DNA from: Syntrophorhabdaceae bacterium
Lineage (GTDB): Bacteria; Desulfobacterota; Syntrophorhabdia; Syntrophorhabdales; Syntrophorhabdaceae
Direction of reading: 5' to 3'
NCBI GenBank assembly: GCA_036504895.1
Contig: DASXUJ010000128.1
Span: 1-50,389, forward strand
DNA length: 50,389 nt
The translations under genes and the position numbers were made by a program. The notes beneath the pieces were generated by a model. It made no database searches, had not been told where the DNA came from, and worked only from the letters and a program-made list of their open reading frames with translations. This document shows, one piece after another, positions 4,540 through 35,979 of this stretch; within the stretch, counting starts at the first letter, position 1, and the number at the start of each line of letters is the position of its first letter.

Positions 4540-5148
4540 TCAGGGACTGTCGGATTGGCCGACATCAAGCCATTCGGCCAGCATCGCGGCATGTTCCGCC
4601 TCCAGGTGGGACGTGGAATAAAGATAGATCGCCGATGTCGAAGTTGAGGTTGCTGCAATATCATCATAACCCCCGGCTTTTGCCATCGCCTCCAGACAAT
4701 CGAGAACCTGCTGATAGGGGAGGTCGAAGGGCGGGTCCGAAAAAATAGAAAGTGGTACGGGCCGCTGGTATTCACGGGCACTTTGACGGACGGTCCCGGC
4801 AATGAGCGGCAAGGGGCCCTCCAGCTTATGAAGGAGAATTGTGGCGTAGGCCCCGGTCATGGAGTGAGCGGAGTAATAATAGTGAGAACCTGCCCCGGTG
4901 AGTTTACGGAGATCGTCATTTTTGCGAACCAATTGGGCGAGAATGCCCGGTTCGCTGTCACTTGTCCTGTCCGCGCCGGGGGGTATGAAATGATGAGCTT
5001 TCACCAACCCCAGGATGTCCTGCTCAGAAATAAGCTGCGAGGCCGCGCTCCAATTCCTGATCGCCTCCGCCATTATTTCGACCGCTCTATCAGCGGATTC
5101 CGTTCTGATGCTCACGGAGGGACCGTCTATGGCTGCGGGCTCTTTCAT
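4540..5148 (-). CDS. Unknown protein, last gene of the aldehyde oxidoreductase operon
   Basis: This is a 202-aa soluble protein that I do not recognise. The ATG at 5148 overlaps the oxidoreductase stop in an ATGA arrangement, which points to translational coupling; an upstream extension of the frame only runs antiparallel to the oxidoreductase end. Visible stretches are SAASQLISEQDILGLVKAHH, GAGSHYYYSAHSMTGAYAT and DCLEAMAKAGGYDDI. It has no signal peptide, membrane helix or cysteine cluster (a single Cys in LDCLEA), so it is unlikely to carry an iron-sulfur centre. Its fixed place behind the catalytic subunit suggests an accessory or maturation role, which is inference only. Confidence 0.75.
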   Translation of the reverse strand: MKEPAAIDGPSVSIRTESADRAVEIMAEAIRNWSAASQLISEQDILGLVKAHHFIPPGADRTSDSEPGILAQLVRKNDDLRKLTGAGSHYYYSAHSMTGAYATILLHKLEGPLPLIAGTVRQSAREYQRPVPLSIFSDPPFDLPYQQVLDCLEAMAKAGGYDDIAATSTSTSAIYLYSTSHLEAEHAAMLAEWLDVGQSDSP

Positions 5149-7253
5149 GACGGTGTCAGGTTTCTTTTTGCCAGAAAATCGGCGACGCCCCGGAGACCCG
5201 ATCTTTGGTATGCCTCGTCTGTAGGTGCTCCTGTTGCCTTGTCCCATCCCATCTCTTCATAAAACATATCCAGGGCAACCTGCACGTCATGTCTCTCCAT
5301 ATGGGTGGCGCCTTTTGTGAAGGCTGGCGTGCCTTTCTTGCCCGTAAAGACCCATTCGGGGATCTTGTCGTGATGGGTGCGCATCTGCTTTGTCCCCATG
5401 CCGCGGATCGTGAGCGCTCTATGGAGGAGGAAGATACGCTCGGCTACCATGTCCAGCTCCTCCCGGCTCTTCCTGTCCCCTGTTGCGAGACTGTAGAGCA
5501 TTGACTCTATGGAGTCATCGCCCCTGTAGCCTCGTTCCCTTATTGGAGACGCTACCCAGGGCCCCATCCAGTTGCACAGGGAGAGCGAGTCGTGCAGCTC
5601 CTTACGAAGGAGCGCCCATTTTGCCATCCGCGCCTTTGACCGGTGCATGGGCTTGAAGTCACCAATGCCGTCGATGGCCTCCGGGGCGCCCCAGATCTCG
5701 GCTGCCAGTTTCTTCTGCACCGGGAGGGGCAATCCGTTCCGGGTGAAATTGCTGTGAGAATGGCACATGCAGTCACGGTTGTACATCAGGTTGACGAGCA
5801 CACCGCATTGCCCCGTCTCTTCCGAGGAATGGTGCTTGGGGTGGCCCATCTTCCAGTAGGCGAGGTCCTTGTCTTTGCCCCACTGCTCTTCGGAGAGCGA
5901 CCATCGTTCCAGCATGTAACCTGTGCCGAGACCCAGCGCCGTGCCAAGCTCACCCTCTCTTTTTGCGATCCGCGGTAAGAGTTCAAAGAGGAATGCGGGG
6001 TCTCCCTTCTCATACTTTTGCCAGGAATAACTCCGGAATTCCCGGGAGCCCAGCTTTTTTTCTATTGTACCGTCATAGTAAAGCTTGACGAAGTCCCGCT
6101 GCAATTGACCGTAGTTGCACCACACGCCGAGGTCATCGGCCAGATGCATTCCGACCATGGTATGCTCCAGGCTGGTCGCTCCGTGCGGACCTCCGGGCAC
6201 CTCCTTGAAGAACGTGCGACCCCACTTTACGCTTATACACGTATTCTGCCCCACGGCGGGTATGCCGTATTTCGCTTCTACGGCGGGGACCTTGAGCATC
6301 GTGTGGCAGCGGATGGGGCACGCGGTGCAGCCGTTCCCCCTGACTGTGTGCTTCCAGGCGATATCGCCAAGCCAGTTCACGGCGAGGTTCGAGCGATAGG
6401 CAATCCGGTTCAGGTCACGGGGATTGCAGGTCCCTGTTTCCACCGGATGGGCCGCGGCTCCCCAGCGGCGCCCCCTGGACGCATTCCAACGCGACGCCGG
6501 GTCAAAGAACTCCGCCCAGGGCTGGGGTGAGTTGGGCACCACGTGCTGGTTGTTCCCGCCCAGGAGGGAGAGGTGATATTTGATCAATTTTTCCCAGTCC
6601 TCTTTCCTGCCTGCGATTCTGATGCTGCCCGTACCCCGGACACCGACGGCCTTGAGGTTCTTGGACCCCATAACCGATCCGATGCCGCCGGCGGAATGGG
6701 AGAGGCCGCTAATCAAAACGGACATGGGGACCAGGTTCTCACCTGCCTGCCCGATTGAGGCTATGGTCGCGTCAGAACCCATGATCTCGGAGATGGCGTA
6801 GGCGGTCCTGCGGGTACCCTGGCCCCATAATCTGCGGGCATCGTGAATCTCGACTTTTTCATCGGCAATCATGAGCCATACGGGATGATCGGCCCTTCCA
6901 TGGACGATGATTGCGTCATAGCCCGCATATTTCAGTTCTGCGGCAAATTGTCCGCCCATATGTCCCGACGCAACCAGGGGTATGGGCCAACAGGTAGGCC
7001 AGAGGGTCGTGACGGCTGTCCGGCCGTTGCAGGGAGCACTCGTTCCCGCGAGCGGCCCTACGGCAAAAATGATCCTGTTTTCGGGATCGTATGGTGTGGT
7101 CCCCGCCGGAACTTCGTCCCACATAACCTTATAGCCGATCCCCGTGCCTCCCAGGTAGTCTTTATAGCAGTCGATTGTGCTCTCGGTCCGGATTCTTCCT
7201 GTCGACAAATCGACGCGCAGGACCTTGCCTGCCCACCCTCCATATCCGCTCAT
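5145..7253 (-). CDS. Tungsten-type aldehyde:ferredoxin oxidoreductase family catalytic subunit
   Basis: The 702-aa protein belongs to the AOR family, whose members hold a bis-pterin tungsten cofactor and one 4Fe-4S cluster and oxidise aldehydes or reduce acids and aryl-CoA-type substrates. It begins with the typical GYGGWAGKVLRVDLSTG and has YLGGTGIGYK and a GGIGSVMGSKNLKAV segment. The cluster ligands are C309, C312 and C316 in CTACPIRC, and the fourth is expected in the NRDCMCHS region. It is longer than classical AOR (about 600 residues) because of a C-terminal extension. Its start overlaps the cytochrome b stop by ATGA. The neighbours imply electron exchange with the membrane rather than with soluble ferredoxin. 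The substrate cannot be read from the sequence. Confidence 0.92.
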   Translation of the reverse strand: MSGYGGWAGKVLRVDLSTGRIRTESTIDCYKDYLGGTGIGYKVMWDEVPAGTTPYDPENRIIFAVGPLAGTSAPCNGRTAVTTLWPTCWPIPLVASGHMGGQFAAELKYAGYDAIIVHGRADHPVWLMIADEKVEIHDARRLWGQGTRRTAYAISEIMGSDATIASIGQAGENLVPMSVLISGLSHSAGGIGSVMGSKNLKAVGVRGTGSIRIAGRKEDWEKLIKYHLSLLGGNNQHVVPNSPQPWAEFFDPASRWNASRGRRWGAAAHPVETGTCNPRDLNRIAYRSNLAVNWLGDIAWKHTVRGNGCTACPIRCHTMLKVPAVEAKYGIPAVGQNTCISVKWGRTFFKEVPGGPHGATSLEHTMVGMHLADDLGVWCNYGQLQRDFVKLYYDGTIEKKLGSREFRSYSWQKYEKGDPAFLFELLPRIAKREGELGTALGLGTGYMLERWSLSEEQWGKDKDLAYWKMGHPKHHSSEETGQCGVLVNLMYNRDCMCHSHSNFTRNGLPLPVQKKLAAEIWGAPEAIDGIGDFKPMHRSKARMAKWALLRKELHDSLSLCNWMGPWVASPIRERGYRGDDSIESMLYSLATGDRKSREELDMVAERIFLLHRALTIRGMGTKQMRTHHDKIPEWVFTGKKGTPAFTKGATHMERHDVQVALDMFYEEMGWDKATGAPTDEAYQRSGLRGVADFLAKRNLTPS

Positions 7254-7924
7254 TCTGTTGTCCTTTCCAGGGAAGCCGCGACAGGACCCGATGGGCCCTC
7301 GTGGTGAGTCCTGTTGTCCTCGTCCTCATATCCGGTTATCATCGCCTTCGTATGGGATAGAAATGTAGCGCCCAGGGTCGCCATATAGAGGTGAACTATG
7401 ACGTACAGGATCAGTAGATAAGTAAGGGTCACATGAATCGCGTCAAGGGGCCTGATGAGGCCTTCCGACAGGAGATAAGGCCGCACGACCGGGATGTCCA
7501 TGAAGAGGAGACCTGTCAATGCCTGGGCGGGAAGAAAGAAGAACATGAGGGCGCCGTAGGCCATCTTCTGAAGGGGGTTGTACTTGTGGTCAGGGTCGGC
7601 CTTGAACGGATTTTCAGCTCCGGCGAAGATAGAAAAGAGATAGAATCGTATTTGGGGAAAGACGTTCGGAAAATCTTTCTTCCTGATTCCGTATTGGCTT
7701 CTCGTGTCTTTACTCGCCAAGGTATAGATAAGCCAGAAAGCTATTGCCCCAATCATGGCGTAGCCCGCGTACCTGTGCCATGAGAGGACCGGATCGTGTG
7801 GTTTGAGGGCCGCGATCCCTTGTAGCCTGAGATAGAGTCCTGTGACGATCAACGCGATCATGATGAATGCGTTAGTCCAGTGCCATACCCGAAGGGGGAG
7901 CGGGTGAAGACAGGGAGGTTTCAT
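7250..7924 (-). CDS. Cytochrome b561-like membrane subunit
   Basis: The 224-aa integral membrane protein resembles the cytochrome b subunits of formate dehydrogenases and hydrogenases. Helices are visible at about 17-36, 52-70, 122-143 and 161-187. Candidate haem ligands are H7 or H15 (HPLPLRVWHWTNAF), H50 (SWHRYAGYAMIG), H164 and H178 (HVTLTYLLILYVIVHLYMA). Both ends overlap neighbours by ATGA, with the 4Fe-4S protein upstream and the oxidoreductase downstream. It probably passes electrons between the quinone pool and the iron-sulfur subunit. A longer frame upstream is only the shadow of the ferredoxin gene. Confidence 0.88.
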   Translation of the reverse strand: MKPPCLHPLPLRVWHWTNAFIMIALIVTGLYLRLQGIAALKPHDPVLSWHRYAGYAMIGAIAFWLIYTLASKDTRSQYGIRKKDFPNVFPQIRFYLFSIFAGAENPFKADPDHKYNPLQKMAYGALMFFFLPAQALTGLLFMDIPVVRPYLLSEGLIRPLDAIHVTLTYLLILYVIVHLYMATLGATFLSHTKAMITGYEDEDNRTHHEGPSGPVAASLERTTE

Positions 7925-8838
7925 CGCCTGGTGACCTTTCGCACAATAGCATGGACCAGTACGGCGCCGATCGTCAGAGGGACAAGAAGCGTACCGGCCA
8001 TGTCGACCCACTTGAAGCCGATCCCGTCTGAAGCATCCAACCGCCATCTTCCCAGCGCTCGCCTGAGCATTGTGCTTACCTGCCGGACATTCTCCCCTTG
8101 GCCGGGCAAGTGACATTCCCGGCACCCGTTGGCCCGTTGCGGCGAAAGCGTGGCGGTGTCCAAATTGCGGGGAGGGATTTTCCCGGTCAGGTCTCGCCAG
8201 GATACATAGCTCAGGGACCCTGCTGGACACGCCTCCACGCATTTCGGTTTTCCCTCACAAAGGTGACACTTGGTCGCCTTTCGGCTATCCGGATCATATG
8301 AGATCATCTCCCAGGGACATGCCCTGAGACATATCTTACAGCCGGTGCACTTTTCCGGATCGATCACGCGCGCATTGGTGAGGGGCGAGAGAATTATGGC
8401 ATTTTCCGGGCATATGTTGGCGCAGGGCACAGGGTGGGGGCATTGTTTGCAAAGGTCCTGTATGATGAGTCCGTCTCCGAAGTTGCCATGACCTTCGCGC
8501 CACGCCTTGTGGCTCAGGGGGCCGAAATTGATATTCCGGTCGACCCTGATGCGGGACAAGGCCGGCGCTGCTCTGCCGTCGTTGAATTCCGTGCATGCCA
8601 GCTCACAGCGGCCGCACCCGACGCACAAGACGGGATCGGAGATGACCATGCCCTGGGCCTTCTCCATGATAATAAGAGGTCTGCCGGTATCCAGGGCAAA
8701 TGCCGGCGACAGGGCGGACAACCCGATGACCGAGACTCCGCCCCAAATCAAGACTTGTCTCCGGGTACACAATCGATCCAGGCCGGATTCTCCGAATTCC
8801 AGGGTTGTGACCTCTTTCGTGACAGGGTTTGATTTCAT
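7921..8838 (-). CDS. Tat-exported 4Fe-4S electron-transfer subunit with one CxxCH motif
   Basis: The 305-aa first gene of the operon has a twin-arginine-like start (TRRQVLIWGGVSVIGLSAL, about residues 25-43). Four cysteine groups of the polyferredoxin type begin with CVGCGRCELAC, and another is CTGCKICLRAC; the others include CKQC and CHLC. A C-terminal membrane helix (about 279-299) ends in positively charged KVTRR. This is the layout of the iron-sulfur subunits that bridge a catalytic subunit and a cytochrome b. A lone haem-c type motif, CRECH at 239-243, sits between the clusters and the anchor. If it is exported by Tat, the catalytic subunit, which has no signal of its own, would have to ride along or face the other side; this is unresolved. 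Confidence 0.9.
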   Translation of the reverse strand: MKSNPVTKEVTTLEFGESGLDRLCTRRQVLIWGGVSVIGLSALSPAFALDTGRPLIIMEKAQGMVISDPVLCVGCGRCELACTEFNDGRAAPALSRIRVDRNINFGPLSHKAWREGHGNFGDGLIIQDLCKQCPHPVPCANICPENAIILSPLTNARVIDPEKCTGCKICLRACPWEMISYDPDSRKATKCHLCEGKPKCVEACPAGSLSYVSWRDLTGKIPPRNLDTATLSPQRANGCRECHLPGQGENVRQVSTMLRRALGRWRLDASDGIGFKWVDMAGTLLVPLTIGAVLVHAIVRKVTRR

Positions 8839-22480: not shown

Positions 22481-23431
22481 CTACATGATCGCGTTAAAGA
22501 GATATCCCACCGCCATTATAGTCACGGTCATGATACCCACAAAAACCGCCAGGAGCCTCACTTTGAGAACCTTTCGCAAAATGATCATTTCCGGCAGCGA
22601 CAGGGCGGTGACCGCCATCATAAAGGCGAGCGTGGTGCCGAGGGTCAACCCTTTCTGCATGAGGGCGTACACTATGGGGATCACACCCGCGGCATTTGAA
22701 TAAAGAGGCACCCCAAGGGCCACGGCGATGGGGACAGCAAAAATATTCCCCTTTCCCGCGTATTTGACGAGAAAGTCCTCGGGCACATAACCGTGAATGA
22801 ATCCTCCGATGCCGATGGCGATGATCACATAGAACCAGATCTTACCGAGGATCTCCTTCGTATTCGATTTCGCGTAGTCGATCCGGTCCCTGAAGGTTTG
22901 CGGTCCCAGCTCCTGGCCCTCGCCCATATGCATCTGATAGACATACTCTTCCACCCATCTCTCGAGTTTCAGCTTTCCTATTATATACCCGCCGAGCATG
23001 GCTACACAGAGGCCTGTACCGATATAGAGGGCGGTTACCTTCCACCCGAAGAGCCCCCAGAGCAGGACGATCGCCACCTCATTGACCATAGGCGACGAGA
23101 TGAGAAACGAAAAAGTGACACCCAGGGGCACGCCCCCTTCCACGAACCCGATGAAAAGGGGCACTGCCGAGCATGAGCAAAAGGGAGTCACCACCCCGAG
23201 CAGGGCAGCGAGTATGTTCCCTATGAATTCCCTCTTGTGAGAAAGGATCTTCCTTGTCTTTTCCGGAGGGAAGAAGCTCCTTACCAGGGAGATGGCGAAG
23301 ATGATAACCATAAGAAGGAGGAAAATCTTGATCGTGTCGTAGATGAAGAATTCCAGGGCGCCGGAAAGATTAGTGTTCGGAGCCATTCTGAAAAGATCGT
23401 AGACTACATATTTTGAAAAGCTACTCAGCAT
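22481..23431 (-). CDS. Permease of the ArsP/DUF318 family
   Basis: The 316-aa membrane protein has about eight helices. It carries the family hallmark TPFCSCSAVPLFIGFVEGG followed by SFLISSPMVNEVAIVLL. A second half contains IPIVYALMQKGLTLGTTLAF and ALSLPEMIILRKVL. ArsP members export trivalent organoarsenicals; other relatives are linked to copper or zinc efflux, so the substrate is open. AAAGGAGG sets the start. It is the last gene of the ArsR-headed minus-strand cluster (26850 to 22481). The cysteine pair C-S-C in the membrane motif is intact. Confidence 0.88.
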   Translation of the reverse strand: MLSSFSKYVVYDLFRMAPNTNLSGALEFFIYDTIKIFLLLMVIIFAISLVRSFFPPEKTRKILSHKREFIGNILAALLGVVTPFCSCSAVPLFIGFVEGGVPLGVTFSFLISSPMVNEVAIVLLWGLFGWKVTALYIGTGLCVAMLGGYIIGKLKLERWVEEYVYQMHMGEGQELGPQTFRDRIDYAKSNTKEILGKIWFYVIIAIGIGGFIHGYVPEDFLVKYAGKGNIFAVPIAVALGVPLYSNAAGVIPIVYALMQKGLTLGTTLAFMMAVTALSLPEMIILRKVLKVRLLAVFVGIMTVTIMAVGYLFNAIM

Positions 23432-23473: not shown

Positions 23474-24175
23474 TCAGACGGTTGTATAGATCAAATAAAT
23501 TCCGCCAAGAACCACAAAGGCGCCGCACACCCTTTTCACCACGAGAGGCCCTTTCGACTTTTCATTCCAGTTCAGGTATCGTTGGACCAGCTCCGTGAAG
23601 GTTCCTGCCAGCACGATAATGGAGCAGTGGCCGACCGCATAAGCCAGAAGGAGAAGAATCCCGTACCATAGCTTCGTGGCGGCGAGCTGGAAGGTGATGG
23701 TCAGCATGGGCGCCATGTATGCAAAGGTGCAAGGGCCCAGGGCGACGCCGAAGATGAGCCCGAGAATGAAGGCGGCGAATGTCCCTTTCCGCGTCATCCC
23801 GATTCGTCCGGGACCGGACCAGGGCATGGGGATGAGGTCGAAGAGATGGAGGGCAACCAAAAAGAAAACTGCCGCGACAAAGTAGTTTCCGTACCGGCCC
23901 ACATCACCCATCATGCGCCCCGCCATGGCGGTGATTATGCCGATCGCCGCGATGCTCACCATGAGTCCCGCGGAGAAGAGGAGAGAAATGAAAAAGGCCC
24001 TTTTTGTCGCGATACGGCCTTGTTCGTCGATGAACCCCACGACGAGAGGGATGCTCGAAAGGTGGCAGGGGCTTAAGACCATGCTGAGGACGCCCCAGAG
24101 GAATGCGCCGGAAAGGGCAAAGGCGGGTGTTCCCTCGACTGCGGAATTGAGCGTGATGAAGAGTTGCTCGATCAT
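23474..24175 (-). CDS. CcdA/DsbD-type transmembrane thiol electron carrier
   Basis: The 233-aa protein has six helices, each half carrying the conserved cysteine of the CcdA family: VLSPCHLSSIPLVVGFIDE near the start and VALGPCTFAYMAPML in the second half. These two cysteines form the membrane disulfide that carries reducing power from cytoplasmic thioredoxin to periplasmic partners. The start overlaps the stop of the thioredoxin-like gene upstream (ATGA), so the two are translationally coupled. With the thioredoxin and the VKOR-DsbA fusion it makes a complete thiol relay beside the arsenic genes. Confidence 0.9.
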   Translation of the reverse strand: MIEQLFITLNSAVEGTPAFALSGAFLWGVLSMVLSPCHLSSIPLVVGFIDEQGRIATKRAFFISLLFSAGLMVSIAAIGIITAMAGRMMGDVGRYGNYFVAAVFFLVALHLFDLIPMPWSGPGRIGMTRKGTFAAFILGLIFGVALGPCTFAYMAPMLTITFQLAATKLWYGILLLLAYAVGHCSIIVLAGTFTELVQRYLNWNEKSKGPLVVKRVCGAFVVLGGIYLIYTTV

Positions 24176-26529: not shown

Positions 26530-26850
26530 TTATTTCTTACACAGACAGATTTGCTGTCTCTTTACATTATTCTCTATGACGCCCGTGACACAGCCAAAGA
26601 AATCGACGATACATGGCGTTTCGAGGCGGTATATCATCTCTATCCCCGCCTTCCGCGAAGAGAGGATGCCCGCATCCTTGAGTACCAGCAGGTGCTTCGA
26701 TATGGTCGACTTGTCGGACTCGAACATCTTATTGATCTTCGCAAATGTTGTCTCGCCGTCTTTCAGCGCGTCCACGATCATAAGGCGAACGGGGTGAGCC
26801 ATGGCCTTTATGACCTTGCTTCGAATTTCAGCTTCCTCAAAAGTGAGCAT
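26530..26850 (-). CDS. ArsR-family regulator heading the thiol/permease cluster
   Basis: The 106-aa winged-helix repressor has the recognition helix in STISKHLLVLKDAGIL. It lacks the classical ELCVCDL arsenic site in its alpha-3 helix. Instead it has cysteines in the C-terminal part (CIVDFFGCVTG and a terminal ICLCKK), so its sensor site is probably formed there. It is divergent from the ArsR at 27005 and is read from a strong promoter whose -10 lies in a TTGGTA/TACCAA palindrome. It probably represses the genes down to 22481 and itself. Confidence 0.9.
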   Translation of the reverse strand: MLTFEEAEIRSKVIKAMAHPVRLMIVDALKDGETTFAKINKMFESDKSTISKHLLVLKDAGILSSRKAGIEMIYRLETPCIVDFFGCVTGVIENNVKRQQICLCKK

Positions 26851-27004: not shown

Positions 27005-27418
27005 GTGGAACAGACCATTCAATTGTACAAAGCCCTTTCCGAAGAGATGCGGCTCAGGATCCTCATGCTCCTCACTCACGGCGAGCTGTGCGTGTGCGAT
27101 CTCATGGCGATCTTCGACGAGCCGCAATCCAAAATATCCCGGCACCTCGCATACTTAAGAAATTCAGGACTGGTGAACAGTAAACGGGTGGGTACGTGGA
27201 TGCACTATTCCATAAAAGAACCACTCCATGATGTGGCGGGAGCTCAGCTCGACTTTATCCGGGAACGCCTGTCTTCCCTCGGTTGGTCTAAAGCGGATAT
27301 GGCAAAGATGGAAGAAGTAAAGGCGAAGAAGATATGTGAGGCAGGAGGCACGAAAACAGCGTCGCCCGTTCCGCCCGAAGGCGCAGCGACGAGAAGAGCC
27401 GAAGGCCGCAAAAAATAA
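27005..27418 (+). CDS. arsR: Arsenic-sensing ArsR repressor
   Basis: The 137-aa winged-helix regulator starts at GTG with AAGGAG upstream. It has the classical metalloid site C29-V-C31 in GELCVCDLMAIFDEPQ and the recognition helix PQSKISRHLAYLRNSGLV. The C-terminal tail is long and rich in Lys, Ala and Pro. It is followed after about 30 bases by the ACR3 arsenite transporter on the same strand. It is expected to be displaced from DNA by As(III) or Sb(III). Confidence 0.93.
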   Translation: MEQTIQLYKALSEEMRLRILMLLTHGELCVCDLMAIFDEPQSKISRHLAYLRNSGLVNSKRVGTWMHYSIKEPLHDVAGAQLDFIRERLSSLGWSKADMAKMEEVKAKKICEAGGTKTASPVPPEGAATRRAEGRKK

Positions 27419-27449: not shown

Positions 27450-28544
27450 ATGGCCGGAGAACAGCTCAGCAGAAAACTCTCTTTTTTGGACCGATTCCTC
27501 ACGTTATGGATTTTCCTGGCCATGTTCATAGGGGTGGGATGGGGCTATTTTTCTCCGGGGGTCGTCGATTTCTGGAACCAGTTCCAGTCCGGGACAACCA
27601 ACATTCCCATCGCCATAGGGCTCATCCTCATGATGTACCCACCGCTGGCAAAGGTAAAGTATGAGGAGTTGGGAGAGGTATTCAAGAACTTCAAGGTTTT
27701 GGGCCTCTCCCTCGTGCAGAACTGGGTGGTGGGGCCCATCCTTATGTTTCTCCTCGCCATCATATTCCTCCGTGGCTACCCGGAATACATGGTGGGGCTC
27801 ATCATGATCGGCCTGGCCCGCTGCATTGCCATGGTCATCGTCTGGAACGACCTCGCAAAGGGAGATACGGAGTACTGCGCGGGTCTCGTGGCTTTCAATT
27901 CCATATTCCAGGTCCTTTTCTTTTCCGTCTATGCCTACATATTTATCACGGTCCTTCCGCCCCTCCTGGGGCTCAAGGGTATGGTGGTCAATATCACTAT
28001 CGGCCAGATCGCCGAGAGCGTCTTCATTTACCTGGGTATCCCTTTCATTGCCGGCGTTATTACACGGTTCGCCCTGATCAAGATCAAAGACAAGAAATGG
28101 TATCATGAAAAATTCATACCGAAAATCAGCCCCCTTACCCTCATCGCCCTCCTTTTTACCATCCTCGTCATGTTTTCTCTGAAGGGTGAGTACATTGTAA
28201 AGATCCCGATGGACGTAGTGAGGATCGCCATACCGCTGCTCATCTACTTTATCATCATGTTTCTCGTCTCCTTCTATATGAGCGCAAAGGCGAATGCCCA
28301 TTACGGACAGGCAGCGACCCTCTCCTTTACGGCCGCGTCGAACAATTTCGAGCTTGCCATCGCTGTGGCGGTCGCCGTTTTCGGGATCAATTCGGGGGCT
28401 GCCTTCGCCGCCGTGATCGGCCCTCTTGTGGAGGTGCCGGTGCTCATTAACCTCGTCCACCTGTCCCTCTGGTTCAAGAAGAAGTATTTCCCCTACGCCA
28501 AGGAGACGCCTACGGGGGTGTGTTATTATACGTGCAAAGACTGA
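27450..28544 (+). CDS. acr3: ACR3-family arsenite efflux transporter
   Basis: The 364-aa transporter has ten predicted helices. The essential cysteine of the family is C125 in [20 protein letters not shown]. Further typical segments are the TM1 region [34 protein letters not shown] and [33 protein letters not shown] precedes the ATG. ACR3 exports arsenite using the proton motive force. The C-terminus carries two extra cysteines (GVCYYTCKD). It is the second gene of the ArsR transcript; two selenoprotein genes follow on the same strand. Confidence 0.96.
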
Positions 28545-28592: not shown

Positions 28593-28838
28593 ATGTCCGA
28601 CAAGATCATTATTTACGGCACGGATGGCTGACCTTACTGTGCGCAGGCTCGGGCAGCCTACGGCGACAGGGCGGTCTATGTGAACGTGTATGAAGACCGG
28701 AAAGGAATGGAAGAGATGCTCTCTTACTCCGGGGGGAAAATGCAAGTTCCGGTTATCGTTGACGGGGAGAAAGTGGCCATCGGTTTCGTCGGCGATGTTT
28801 CCCTGCGCGGAGGAATCCCTCTCTTCGGCGGAACCTGA
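28593..28838 (+). CDS. UXX-star selenoprotein: glutaredoxin-like, in-frame UGA = Sec13
   Basis: The 81-aa frame runs from ATG 28593 to TGA 28838 with an internal TGA at 28629-28631. Read as selenocysteine it gives YGTDGUPYCAQARAAYGDR, a glutaredoxin-like U13-x-x-C16 active site. It is followed by VNVYEDRKGMEEMLSYSGG and the cis-Pro strand QVPVIVDGEKVAIGFVGD. The protein ends LRGGIPLFGGT. This matches the UXX-star seleno- and thiol-protein group. Support for recoding: homology continues unbroken across the UGA, the position equals the catalytic Cys, a hairpin follows the UGA, and tRNA-Sec is encoded in the window. AAGGAGGAG lies before the ATG. It probably acts in thiol/metalloid reduction. 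Confidence 0.9.
28637..28669 (+). promoter_or_regulatory. Candidate bacterial SECIS hairpin of the UXX-star gene
   Basis: Starting six bases after the UGA, CTGT pairs with ACAG, CGC with GCG and AGGCT with AGCCT around a CGGGC loop, with small bulges. The apical loop is about 19 bases downstream of the UGA and contains guanines, as in known bacterial SECIS elements. Confidence 0.65.
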
Positions 28839-28953: not shown

Positions 28954-29691
28954 ATGCCATACGGAGGAGTACAACGACCGCGAACATCATTGAGCGTGAA
29001 TATTACCTGCATCGCAGCTTTGGGGCAGGCCCAGAAAACGACTGGGCCCGACCTCGTGGAAAGCGCGGCGATATGCAAGAAGGCGGGCTGCAGCGGCATT
29101 ACGGTCAGCCTGCGACAGGACGGATGCTGCATACAGCTCACGGATGCCCTGGCGATACGGAATGCAATTCGGGAAGGGTTTAATCTTGAAATAAGGCTCT
29201 CGGACGAGATGATCGGCATTGCAGAAAAAGTGAAGCCCGATTTGATCACCCTCGCCTCGGCTAAAGACGAAGTAACCACCGAAGGCGGCCTCGATCTCAG
29301 ACGGGATATGCTCAGGATCAAAGACACCATTAAACTTTTCCATGATCAGAACATACCGGTATCCCTGTCGATTAACTTTGATCTTGAGATGGTTGAGCTA
29401 TCGAAGGCATGCGAGGCCGATCAGGTAGAAATCCATACCGGCGCATATGGGAGCGCCATAGACAGGTCCGCAGTTGACGAAGAACTCAAGCGCATTTACG
29501 GTGCAGCGGATCATGCCGCAAAACTCGGGTTAAAAATCAGCGCCGGGCACGGCCTCAGCTACGCGAACATCGAGAATCTCCTGGATGCCAGGGGACTCGT
29601 GGAAGTAGTGGTCGGACGTTCGATAGTCGAAAGGTCCGCTACTGTCGGGTTGGCAAGAGCAGTGGGAGAGATGCTGGATGTATTGGAATAG
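28954..29691 (+). CDS. Divergent PdxJ-like protein (pyridoxine 5'-phosphate synthase fold)
   Basis: The 245-aa TIM-barrel protein aligns over its whole length with PdxJ: SLSVNITCIAALGQAQKTT, GITVSLRQDGCCI, VTTEGGLD, EIHTGAYG, KISAGHGLSYANI and VEVVVGRSIVERS. Several PdxJ active-site positions differ. The NIDH motif is NITC (16-19), the His of VHLRED is S52, and the second His of REDRRHI is C59 beside C58. E79 and H199 (AGHGL) remain. It is therefore a paralogue that may have lost normal PNP synthesis. ATG 28954 has ATGGAGG upstream; TTG 28990 is an alternative start. It lies between two selenoprotein genes in the arsenic cluster. Its real reaction is unknown. Confidence 0.85.
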   Translation: MPYGGVQRPRTSLSVNITCIAALGQAQKTTGPDLVESAAICKKAGCSGITVSLRQDGCCIQLTDALAIRNAIREGFNLEIRLSDEMIGIAEKVKPDLITLASAKDEVTTEGGLDLRRDMLRIKDTIKLFHDQNIPVSLSINFDLEMVELSKACEADQVEIHTGAYGSAIDRSAVDEELKRIYGAADHAAKLGLKISAGHGLSYANIENLLDARGLVEVVVGRSIVERSATVGLARAVGEMLDVLE

Positions 29692-29816: not shown

Positions 29817-30113
29817 ATGTTTACGGTTACGGAAAAAGCAGTCGGCATGATCAGAGATTTCCTGGTGAAAGACCAAGGGCCCCGCTCCATCAGAATACTC
29901 TCGCAGCCCGGCTGAGGCGGGCCCAAACTGGGTATGGCTCTGGATGAGCCGCAAGAAAATGACGTAACATTCACCGAACAAGGAATAGCCTTTGTGATCG
30001 ACAAAAATCTTTTTAATGAAGCAAAGCCCATACGGATCGATTTCGTGGATTCCCCCAACGGTTCAGGGTTTAACCTGACATCGAAGCTGCCCGCGAGTGG
30101 AGGGTGTTGTTGA
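29817..30113 (+). CDS. HesB/IscA-like selenoprotein, in-frame UGA = Sec33
   Basis: The 98-aa frame runs from ATG 29817 (AAAGGAGGG upstream) to TGA 30113 with an internal TGA at 29913-29915. Read through, it gives SIRILSQPGUGGPKLGMALD, where U33 takes the place of the first conserved cysteine of A-type iron-sulfur carriers. The protein continues EQGIAFVIDKNLFNEAKPIR and IDFVDSPNGSGFNL and ends SGGCC, which replaces the usual C-terminal CxC. It matches the HesB-like selenoprotein group known from Desulfobacterota. A hairpin follows the UGA. The Sec and the CC end could bind a thiophilic element or a cluster; the cellular role is unknown. Confidence 0.9.
29936..29950 (+). promoter_or_regulatory. 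Candidate bacterial SECIS hairpin of the HesB-like gene
   Basis: GGCTC-TGGAT-GAGCC forms a five-pair stem with a guanine-containing five-base loop, 20 to 34 bases after the UGA at 29913. Spacing and loop fit bacterial SECIS elements. Confidence 0.6.
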
Positions 30114-30868: not shown

Positions 30869-31219
30869 ATGGAGACACATGACACCAAAATGGGCATGGG
30901 CACAATGCAGGATATGATGCAGAACATGATGAAAGGGATGGGCGGTATGCCCGACATGTGCACGAAGATGATGCAGCAGATGATGGGCTCCAACTCCGAT
31001 GCCTCATCCCTTGCCACACCGGAGATCAAAGGACTTTTTGAAGAATGGGTGCGGACCTTGGAGGAGGAGATCCTGGCATTCGTCAATGAGAAGGGAAAGA
31101 CAACTCCGTCCGAACTGGCGGCAAAACTCAAGATTTCTGAAGACAGCACCCTCTTTTTTGTCGGGAAAATGGCGAGAGAGCGGAAGCTTACCGTGGGAGA
31201 AATAGGGGTTGGGGCGTAA
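30869..31219 (+). CDS. Met-rich protein with C-terminal winged-helix-like segment
   Basis: The 116-aa protein has 15 methionines among its first 40 residues (for example MGMGTMQDMMQNMMKGMGGM), one Cys31 and two histidine-poor linkers. Residues about 54-110 form three helices and a wing-like end (LKISEDSTLFFVGKMARERK, LTVGEIGVGA), reminiscent of small winged-helix domains. GAAGGAGGG precedes the ATG. Met-rich segments bind soft metals such as Cu(I) or Ag(I). Coupling to a DNA-binding-like fold and to an ArsR gene suggests a metal-responsive co-regulator or buffer; this is inference. Confidence 0.7.
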   Translation: METHDTKMGMGTMQDMMQNMMKGMGGMPDMCTKMMQQMMGSNSDASSLATPEIKGLFEEWVRTLEEEILAFVNEKGKTTPSELAAKLKISEDSTLFFVGKMARERKLTVGEIGVGA

Positions 31220-31477
31220 CTAAGCGGATGCGAGGGCGTACGGGGAGCCCGACGTGCGGGACGACACGACATAACGTAAGTTGCCTGAAGACCCATCCCC
31301 CTTCTTCGCAAGAGTCATCTGGGAAAGCACAAAGCCCGATCCCCCGAAGGTCACATTAACCTTCACTCCCGTCTTTTTCTCGAAAGCCTTGGCCGCTTCT
31401 TCGGTTGGCGGTTTGGATGCGGCACCGGCGAACACAAGAAGCTCTAGAATTGTGGGCATGTTCCCACTCCTCTCCAC
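31220..31477 (-). pseudogene. Remnant of a molybdate/tungstate-type solute-binding protein
   Basis: Only the first part of a ModA/WtpA-like binding protein is present: LLVFAGAASKPPTEEAAKAF, EKKTGVKVNVTFGGSGFVLS and QMTLAKKGD. The signal peptide is missing. After KKGD the similarity ends in unrelated sequence (SSRTSGSPYALASA). It is read opposite to the surrounding genes and fits exactly between the Met-rich gene and the PadR promoter. Loss of both ends marks it as a fragment. Confidence 0.7.
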
Positions 31478-35883: not shown

Positions 35884-35979
35884 TGGCGGAAGTGCATGGG
35901 AATCGAACCCACCTACCAGCTCGTCACCGGTACACTGGTTTTGAAGACCAGGAGGCCCACCAGGCGCCTCGGCACTTCC
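35884..35979 (-). tRNA. selC: tRNA-Sec (anticodon TCA)
   Basis: This 96-base gene includes an encoded CCA. The acceptor stem is eight pairs (GGAAGTGC with GCACTTCC), the hallmark of bacterial tRNA-Sec. The anticodon stem-loop is CTGGT-CTTCAAA-ACCAG with anticodon TCA. A long variable arm pairs TACCGG with CTGGTA, and the T-arm is TGGG-TTCGATT-CCCA. Gene and terminator follow cheA by 80 bases on the same strand. It is the attachment site of the island on its left, as shown by the 65-base repeat. selA, selB and selD are not in the window. Confidence 0.97.

Follow-up and report, generated by a model that had tools for sequence, protein, structure and literature searches.

A PdxJ-like gene that lies between two selenoprotein genes in a 50,389-nucleotide stretch of Syntrophorhabdaceae DNA (the whole stretch analysed, here called the window) raises the question of whether its product still makes pyridoxine 5'-phosphate or has been turned to another use. 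The original prediction described a PdxJ barrel with altered key positions, and took its cysteine-rich active site and its selenoprotein neighbours as hints of a new reaction, perhaps involving selenium, sulfur or arsenic compounds.

Fold, active site and the canonical copy

The open reading frame was confirmed as real: its translation runs without stops, a ribosome-binding site (GGAGG) precedes the start codon, and homologues begin at the same start. The similarity to PdxJ was found to extend over the whole barrel, as had been proposed. The protein matched the Pfam family PF03740 (PdxJ) over its whole length with 221.2 bits (cut-off 24.5, 1.1e-65), and the sequence of the E. coli PdxJ crystal structure 1ho1 matched it at 8.6e-42; a full-length match above the curated cut-off, together with the PdxJ barrel, places it in this family. 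An AlphaFold2 model built on an alignment had a mean pLDDT of 86.4 and a pTM of 0.84, with confidence below 50 confined to residues 1-7 and the loop 105-110. When superposed by Foldseek, the model fitted the PdxJ structures 5dlc, 1ho1 and 3f4n with a TM score of 0.92 and an rmsd of 1.5-1.6 Å. PdxJ itself is an octamer with a mobile loop at residues 95-105 (PMC10471632). A GGVQxPRT-like N-terminus and the same start are common to 9 of 11 relatives and absent from canonical PdxJ, and a good ribosome-binding site is found ahead of 10 of the 12 intact paralogue copies described below.

For the active site we used a set of 14 functional residues (E. coli numbering: N9, D11, H12, R20, H45, R47, H52, E72, T102, E153, H193, G194, G215 and H216), whose roles we take to be those given in UniProt and HAMAP. 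The motif changes that had been read from the sequence were all correct: NIDH has become NITC, VHLRED has become VSLRQD with serine in place of its histidine, RRH has become GCC with the second histidine replaced by a cysteine beside another cysteine, and the AGHGL histidine is kept. Two further changes had been overlooked (Arg20 to Gln and His216 to Arg), and 8 of 16 mapped active-site positions differ from E. coli PdxJ. It had also been stated that one acidic residue was retained; acidic residues are indeed retained, but there are two of them, E79 and E159, which correspond to E72 and E153 of the E. coli protein. Six of the functional residues (D11, H12, R20, H45, H52 and H216) are replaced in the window protein. 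Of the 27 canonical proteins compared, 25 have the complete set and the other two deviate at H216 only; H45 and H193 are both present in all 27, whereas at least one of the two has been lost in each of the 12 paralogues.

A second, canonical pdxJ was found in the same genome, so that the window gene is not its only pdxJ. This copy (G000:C62:54893-55591) is intact, scores 330.7 bits as against 221.2 for the window gene, and lies in the order glmM-pdxJ-acpS; pdxA is present as well (C51). Therefore, the window gene is not needed to explain vitamin B6 synthesis. Canonical pdxJ was detected in 38 of 39 genomes of the family, including all 10 that carry the paralogue. A working pyridoxine phosphate synthase, for instance a spare isozyme tolerant of arsenic, would account for the shared fold and for scores above the equivalog cut-offs TIGR00559 and NF003627, but with all six of the above residues replaced and a canonical pdxJ present, we regard such an enzyme as very improbable. 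The window protein passes three equivalog cut-offs, these two among them, and NCBI equivalog models of this synthase match all 12 paralogues. Annotation pipelines would therefore name it as the vitamin enzyme, and the database naming of this paralogue as a B6 enzyme is probably wrong.

A paralogue clade and its neighbourhoods

The window gene belongs to a separate, constrained and lineage-restricted clade of PdxJ paralogues that have lost catalytic residues. Twelve intact members and one split by contig ends (G006) were found in 10 of 39 family genomes, in three genera. In the tree of PdxJ homologues that the original prediction had called for, the 12 copies form one clade (support 100/100), which does not arise from within the canonical pdxJ of the family, although it sits on a long branch. 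A profile of the paralogues gave 378-431 bits for intact members and at most 282 for everything else, the former scores being flattered because the members themselves built the profile. The same profile search detected no clade member in a sample of about 380 genomes from elsewhere in the phylum, and the restriction to one family holds within this sampled phylum. Second PdxJ genes elsewhere in the sample are rare, occurring in three genomes outside the family: two carry a different divergent PdxJ-like family whose histidines are kept, and the third has an apparent split or repeated contig end. Scans of plasmids, of viral contigs and, with a single protein as query, of 84,980 species gave no match that was more than about 42% identical; comparison residue by residue covered some loci from the species scan. 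Literature searches for PdxJ paralogues or for a PdxJ linked to ars genes returned nothing relevant.

In the window the gene lies one gene downstream of acr3, after the gene for UXX-star, in an arsenic-resistance (ars) island (Table 1).

Table 1. Positions of the PdxJ-like gene and of other features in the window
Feature	Position	Strand	Remarks
Aldehyde:ferredoxin oxidoreductase-like block	5145..8838	-	Also resembles cytochrome b-type membrane protein and multi-cluster ferredoxin; by eye; contains overlapping frames 7250-8242 and 7921-8838
ArsP-type permease	22481..23431	-	PF03773
CcdA/DsbD transmembrane protein	23474..24175	-	PF02683; homologue follows PdxJ-like gene in G022, G030, G035
Second ArsR-type regulator, divergent	26533..26850	-	Conserved near acr3 in relatives
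ArsR-type regulator, upstream of acr3	27005..27418	+	ORF and conserved ArsR-acr3 order
acr3 arsenite efflux permease	27450..28544	+	Pfam SBF, ACR3-type; close copies across the taxonomic family
UXX-star selenoprotein family 1	28593..28838	+	NF041114 above cut-off; in-frame UGA codon 13, conserved in six other genomes
PdxJ-like paralogue	28954..29691	+	245 aa; altered T18, C19, Q27, S52, G57, C58, C59, R222; kept E79/E159/H199
IscA/HesB-type selenoprotein	29817..30113	+	NF038090 above cut-off; in-frame UGA codon 33, conserved in G005, G007, G013
Small protein, Met/Gly-rich start	30890..31216	+	MGMGTMQDMMQNMMKGMGGMPDMCTKMM...; no Pfam match; possible metal-binding protein, ars island
Short ORF like start of periplasmic solute-binding protein (ModA-like)	31220..31477	-	Apparently truncated gene; by eye
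tRNA-Sec	35884..35979	-	ARAGORN; some 6 kb away from both selenoprotein genes

Copies beside acr3 occur in the genera g1 and g5, and copies in the same island in g4. In G022, G030 and G035 the PdxJ-like gene directly follows acr3 and precedes a thioredoxin-ccdA-arsC-like block; the three g5 loci may represent one inheritance. In G005 it lies about 5 kb from acr3 in an island that also holds the HesB-type selenoprotein, UXX-star, PadR and an ArsP-type permease genes, and in G016 (g4) PadR and a metal P-type ATPase accompany it, in a locus that also holds a cyclopropane-synthase-type methyltransferase gene. The ars island of G005 further contains a gene of the PEP-mutase family (L044:8737-9582) between acr3 and the HesB-type selenoprotein gene. 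It had been asked whether the clade is always found near UXX-star, HesB-like or ACR3 genes. It is not always so: 6 of the 12 copies lie in ars or metal islands, four of them beside acr3, and these six (the window copy, G005, G016, G022a, G030a and G035a) form a tentative subclade with support 80/62. The other half of the clade lies elsewhere, in a sister subclade (support 90/76) without ars loci, and the basic function therefore need not concern arsenic. Genes for YceI and/or an amidohydrolase adjoin the sister-subclade copies in G030, G032, G035 and G036, and other genes those in G022 and G026; the loci L007, L048, L051 and L053 are of the former kind and have no ars genes nearby. Furthermore, the same operon occurs without the PdxJ-like gene in G006, G017, G028 and G032, and 21 of 31 family genomes with acr3 have no such gene, so the gene is optional.

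The two flanking selenoprotein genes are real, as had been proposed, their homologues keeping an in-frame UGA at the same codon. No significant structure emerged from simple RNA folds downstream of either UGA codon (z 0.88 and -0.54), and the selenocysteine assignment is based on the conserved UGA together with the tRNA-Sec gene in the window and SelB, which is encoded elsewhere in the genome (G000:C51). A 2026 review counts UXX-star among the selenoproteins that have been linked to metal and metalloid resistance (PMC13188914). A specific partnership between the selenoproteins and the PdxJ-like protein was considered and rejected, because UXX-star occurs near acr3 without a PdxJ-like gene in five genomes (G007, G009, G011, G018 and G028). 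UXX-star and the HesB-type selenoprotein both lie near acr3 in several relatives that have no PdxJ-like gene there, and the majority of PdxJ-like copies lack a selenoprotein gene in their vicinity. The flanking genes, which had been taken as a hint of function, are thus incidental: the selenoproteins go with acr3 whether or not the PdxJ-like gene is there.

Constraint, pocket variation and possible function

For close pairs, dN/dS (Nei-Gojobori; unreliable where dS exceeds about 1) was 0.17-0.34 for the paralogues, 0.05-0.12 for canonical pdxJ and 0.03-0.06 for acr3, in a small sequence set from one family. These values indicate that the paralogue frames are under purifying selection, but with loose constraint. 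When the window genome is compared with G022 or G030, identity is 44-53% for the paralogue, about 71% for canonical PdxJ and about 90% for ACR3; the ranges from comparisons between the same genomes are 44-53%, 71-79% and 90-94%, respectively. Such rapid evolution relative to the neighbouring acr3 and to canonical PdxJ, a patchy presence in 10 of 39 genomes and varied active-site losses would be expected of a decaying duplicate that is a mere passenger of ars and other islands and has hardly any function, if any. However, all 12 frames are intact, dN/dS is well below 1 in every measured pair, ribosome-binding sites and gene order are kept, and the paralogue alignment has 37 invariant columns, some of them clade-specific, which makes decay an improbable explanation.

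The constraint does not center on the pocket. The 16-residue active-site shell has a mean entropy of 1.03 bits in the paralogues, compared with 1.08 for their average site and 0.00 for the shell in canonical proteins of the same family. H45 has been replaced by serine or arginine, and H193 by cysteine, tryptophan, arginine or tyrosine, or is still histidine in some copies, while all copies retain E72, E153 and G215, and 11 of 12 have T102. The cysteine-rich active site, which had been put forward as the key to the protein, is not a conserved feature: Cys19 and Cys58 are found in the window copy and in no relative, Cys59 is shared with one other copy, and the pocket residues vary freely. Other cysteines are conserved. 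C41, C46 and C153 are invariant in 12 of 12 paralogues, which have 4-8 cysteines per protein as against 0 or 1 in the family's canonical PdxJ. A three-cysteine arsenite site was considered, and it is weakened by two observations: from the topology, C41 and C46, near helix 1-strand 2, would be on the opposite side of the barrel from C153, near helix 5-strand 6, and two of the three, C46 and C153, also occur in an intact canonical PdxJ from another family (L058).

A new reaction is possible, as had been suggested, but nothing in the evidence shows one. In a true new enzyme, the barrel would use Glu72 and Glu153 with the replaced pocket residues (cysteines here) to act on a different substrate, for example an organoarsenical or a phosphorylated metabolite. 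It is the two invariant acids that make this possible, and their invariance would also fit retained catalysis; T108 (11 of 12) and G221 are conserved together with E79 and E159, the genes are under purifying selection, the context is that of ars genes, and the g4 loci include the PEP-mutase-family gene (G005) or the methyltransferase gene (G016). Nevertheless, the pocket residues vary between copies, with W, R, Y, C or H at position 193, no new catalytic residue is common to the pocket, and pocket conservation is no better than average, so that we consider a new enzyme rather unlikely. Because the scaffold is conserved while the pocket is not, we slightly prefer a pseudoenzyme or altered ligand binding to new catalysis. 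The broader proposal, in which a PdxJ-derived barrel has been taken over for arsenic detoxification and has gained a catalytic or metalloid-binding activity so far not described for ars operons, seems doubtful, if conceivable.

On balance, we lean towards a PdxJ-derived accessory protein of the ars island that is not a pyridoxine phosphate synthase. Such a (beta/alpha)8 protein would no longer make pyridoxine 5'-phosphate; its scaffold, Glu72 and Glu153 would be retained, as would part of the phosphate-binding loops, and it would most likely bind a phosphorylated small molecule or a partner protein instead of carrying out the ring closure of DXP and aminoacetone-phosphate. In the genome studied here, the window gene would then serve the ars island and not PNP synthesis. 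If this reading is true, it means both an annotation error and the reuse of a vitamin-synthesis scaffold, in one branch inside arsenic operons, and the canonical and altered copies within one genome provide a testable set.

Comparison with known systems

Among known systems, the UXX-star and IscA/HesB selenoproteins share the neighbourhood of the PdxJ-like gene but have thioredoxin-like and IscA-like folds. Another divergent PdxJ-like family (L126 and L127, in G244 and G286) likewise lies beside a canonical pdxJ in the same genome; unlike the present clade, it keeps the VHPR and AGHDL histidines, is about 31% identical to E. coli PdxJ, and adjoins a MocR-like regulator, with no ars genes seen within the short locus. 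PdxA2, a PdxA paralogue that is used in another pathway and is reported to keep PdxA activity (PMC9997740), is also a duplicate of a vitamin B6 enzyme that was recruited elsewhere and is hard to distinguish by annotation, but it belongs to another enzyme family and differs in its retained activity. With PdxJ itself (PF03740, TIGR00559; E. coli 1HO1/1M5W), the window copy shares the whole fold, the length and N9, R47, E72, T102, E153, H193, G194 and G215. It differs from PdxJ at D11, H12, R20, H45, R50, R51, H52 and H216, in the N-terminal GGVQxPRT extension, in the clade-invariant C41, C46 and C153 and in its membership of a separate clade, and its gene is located in an ars island instead of between glmM and acpS.
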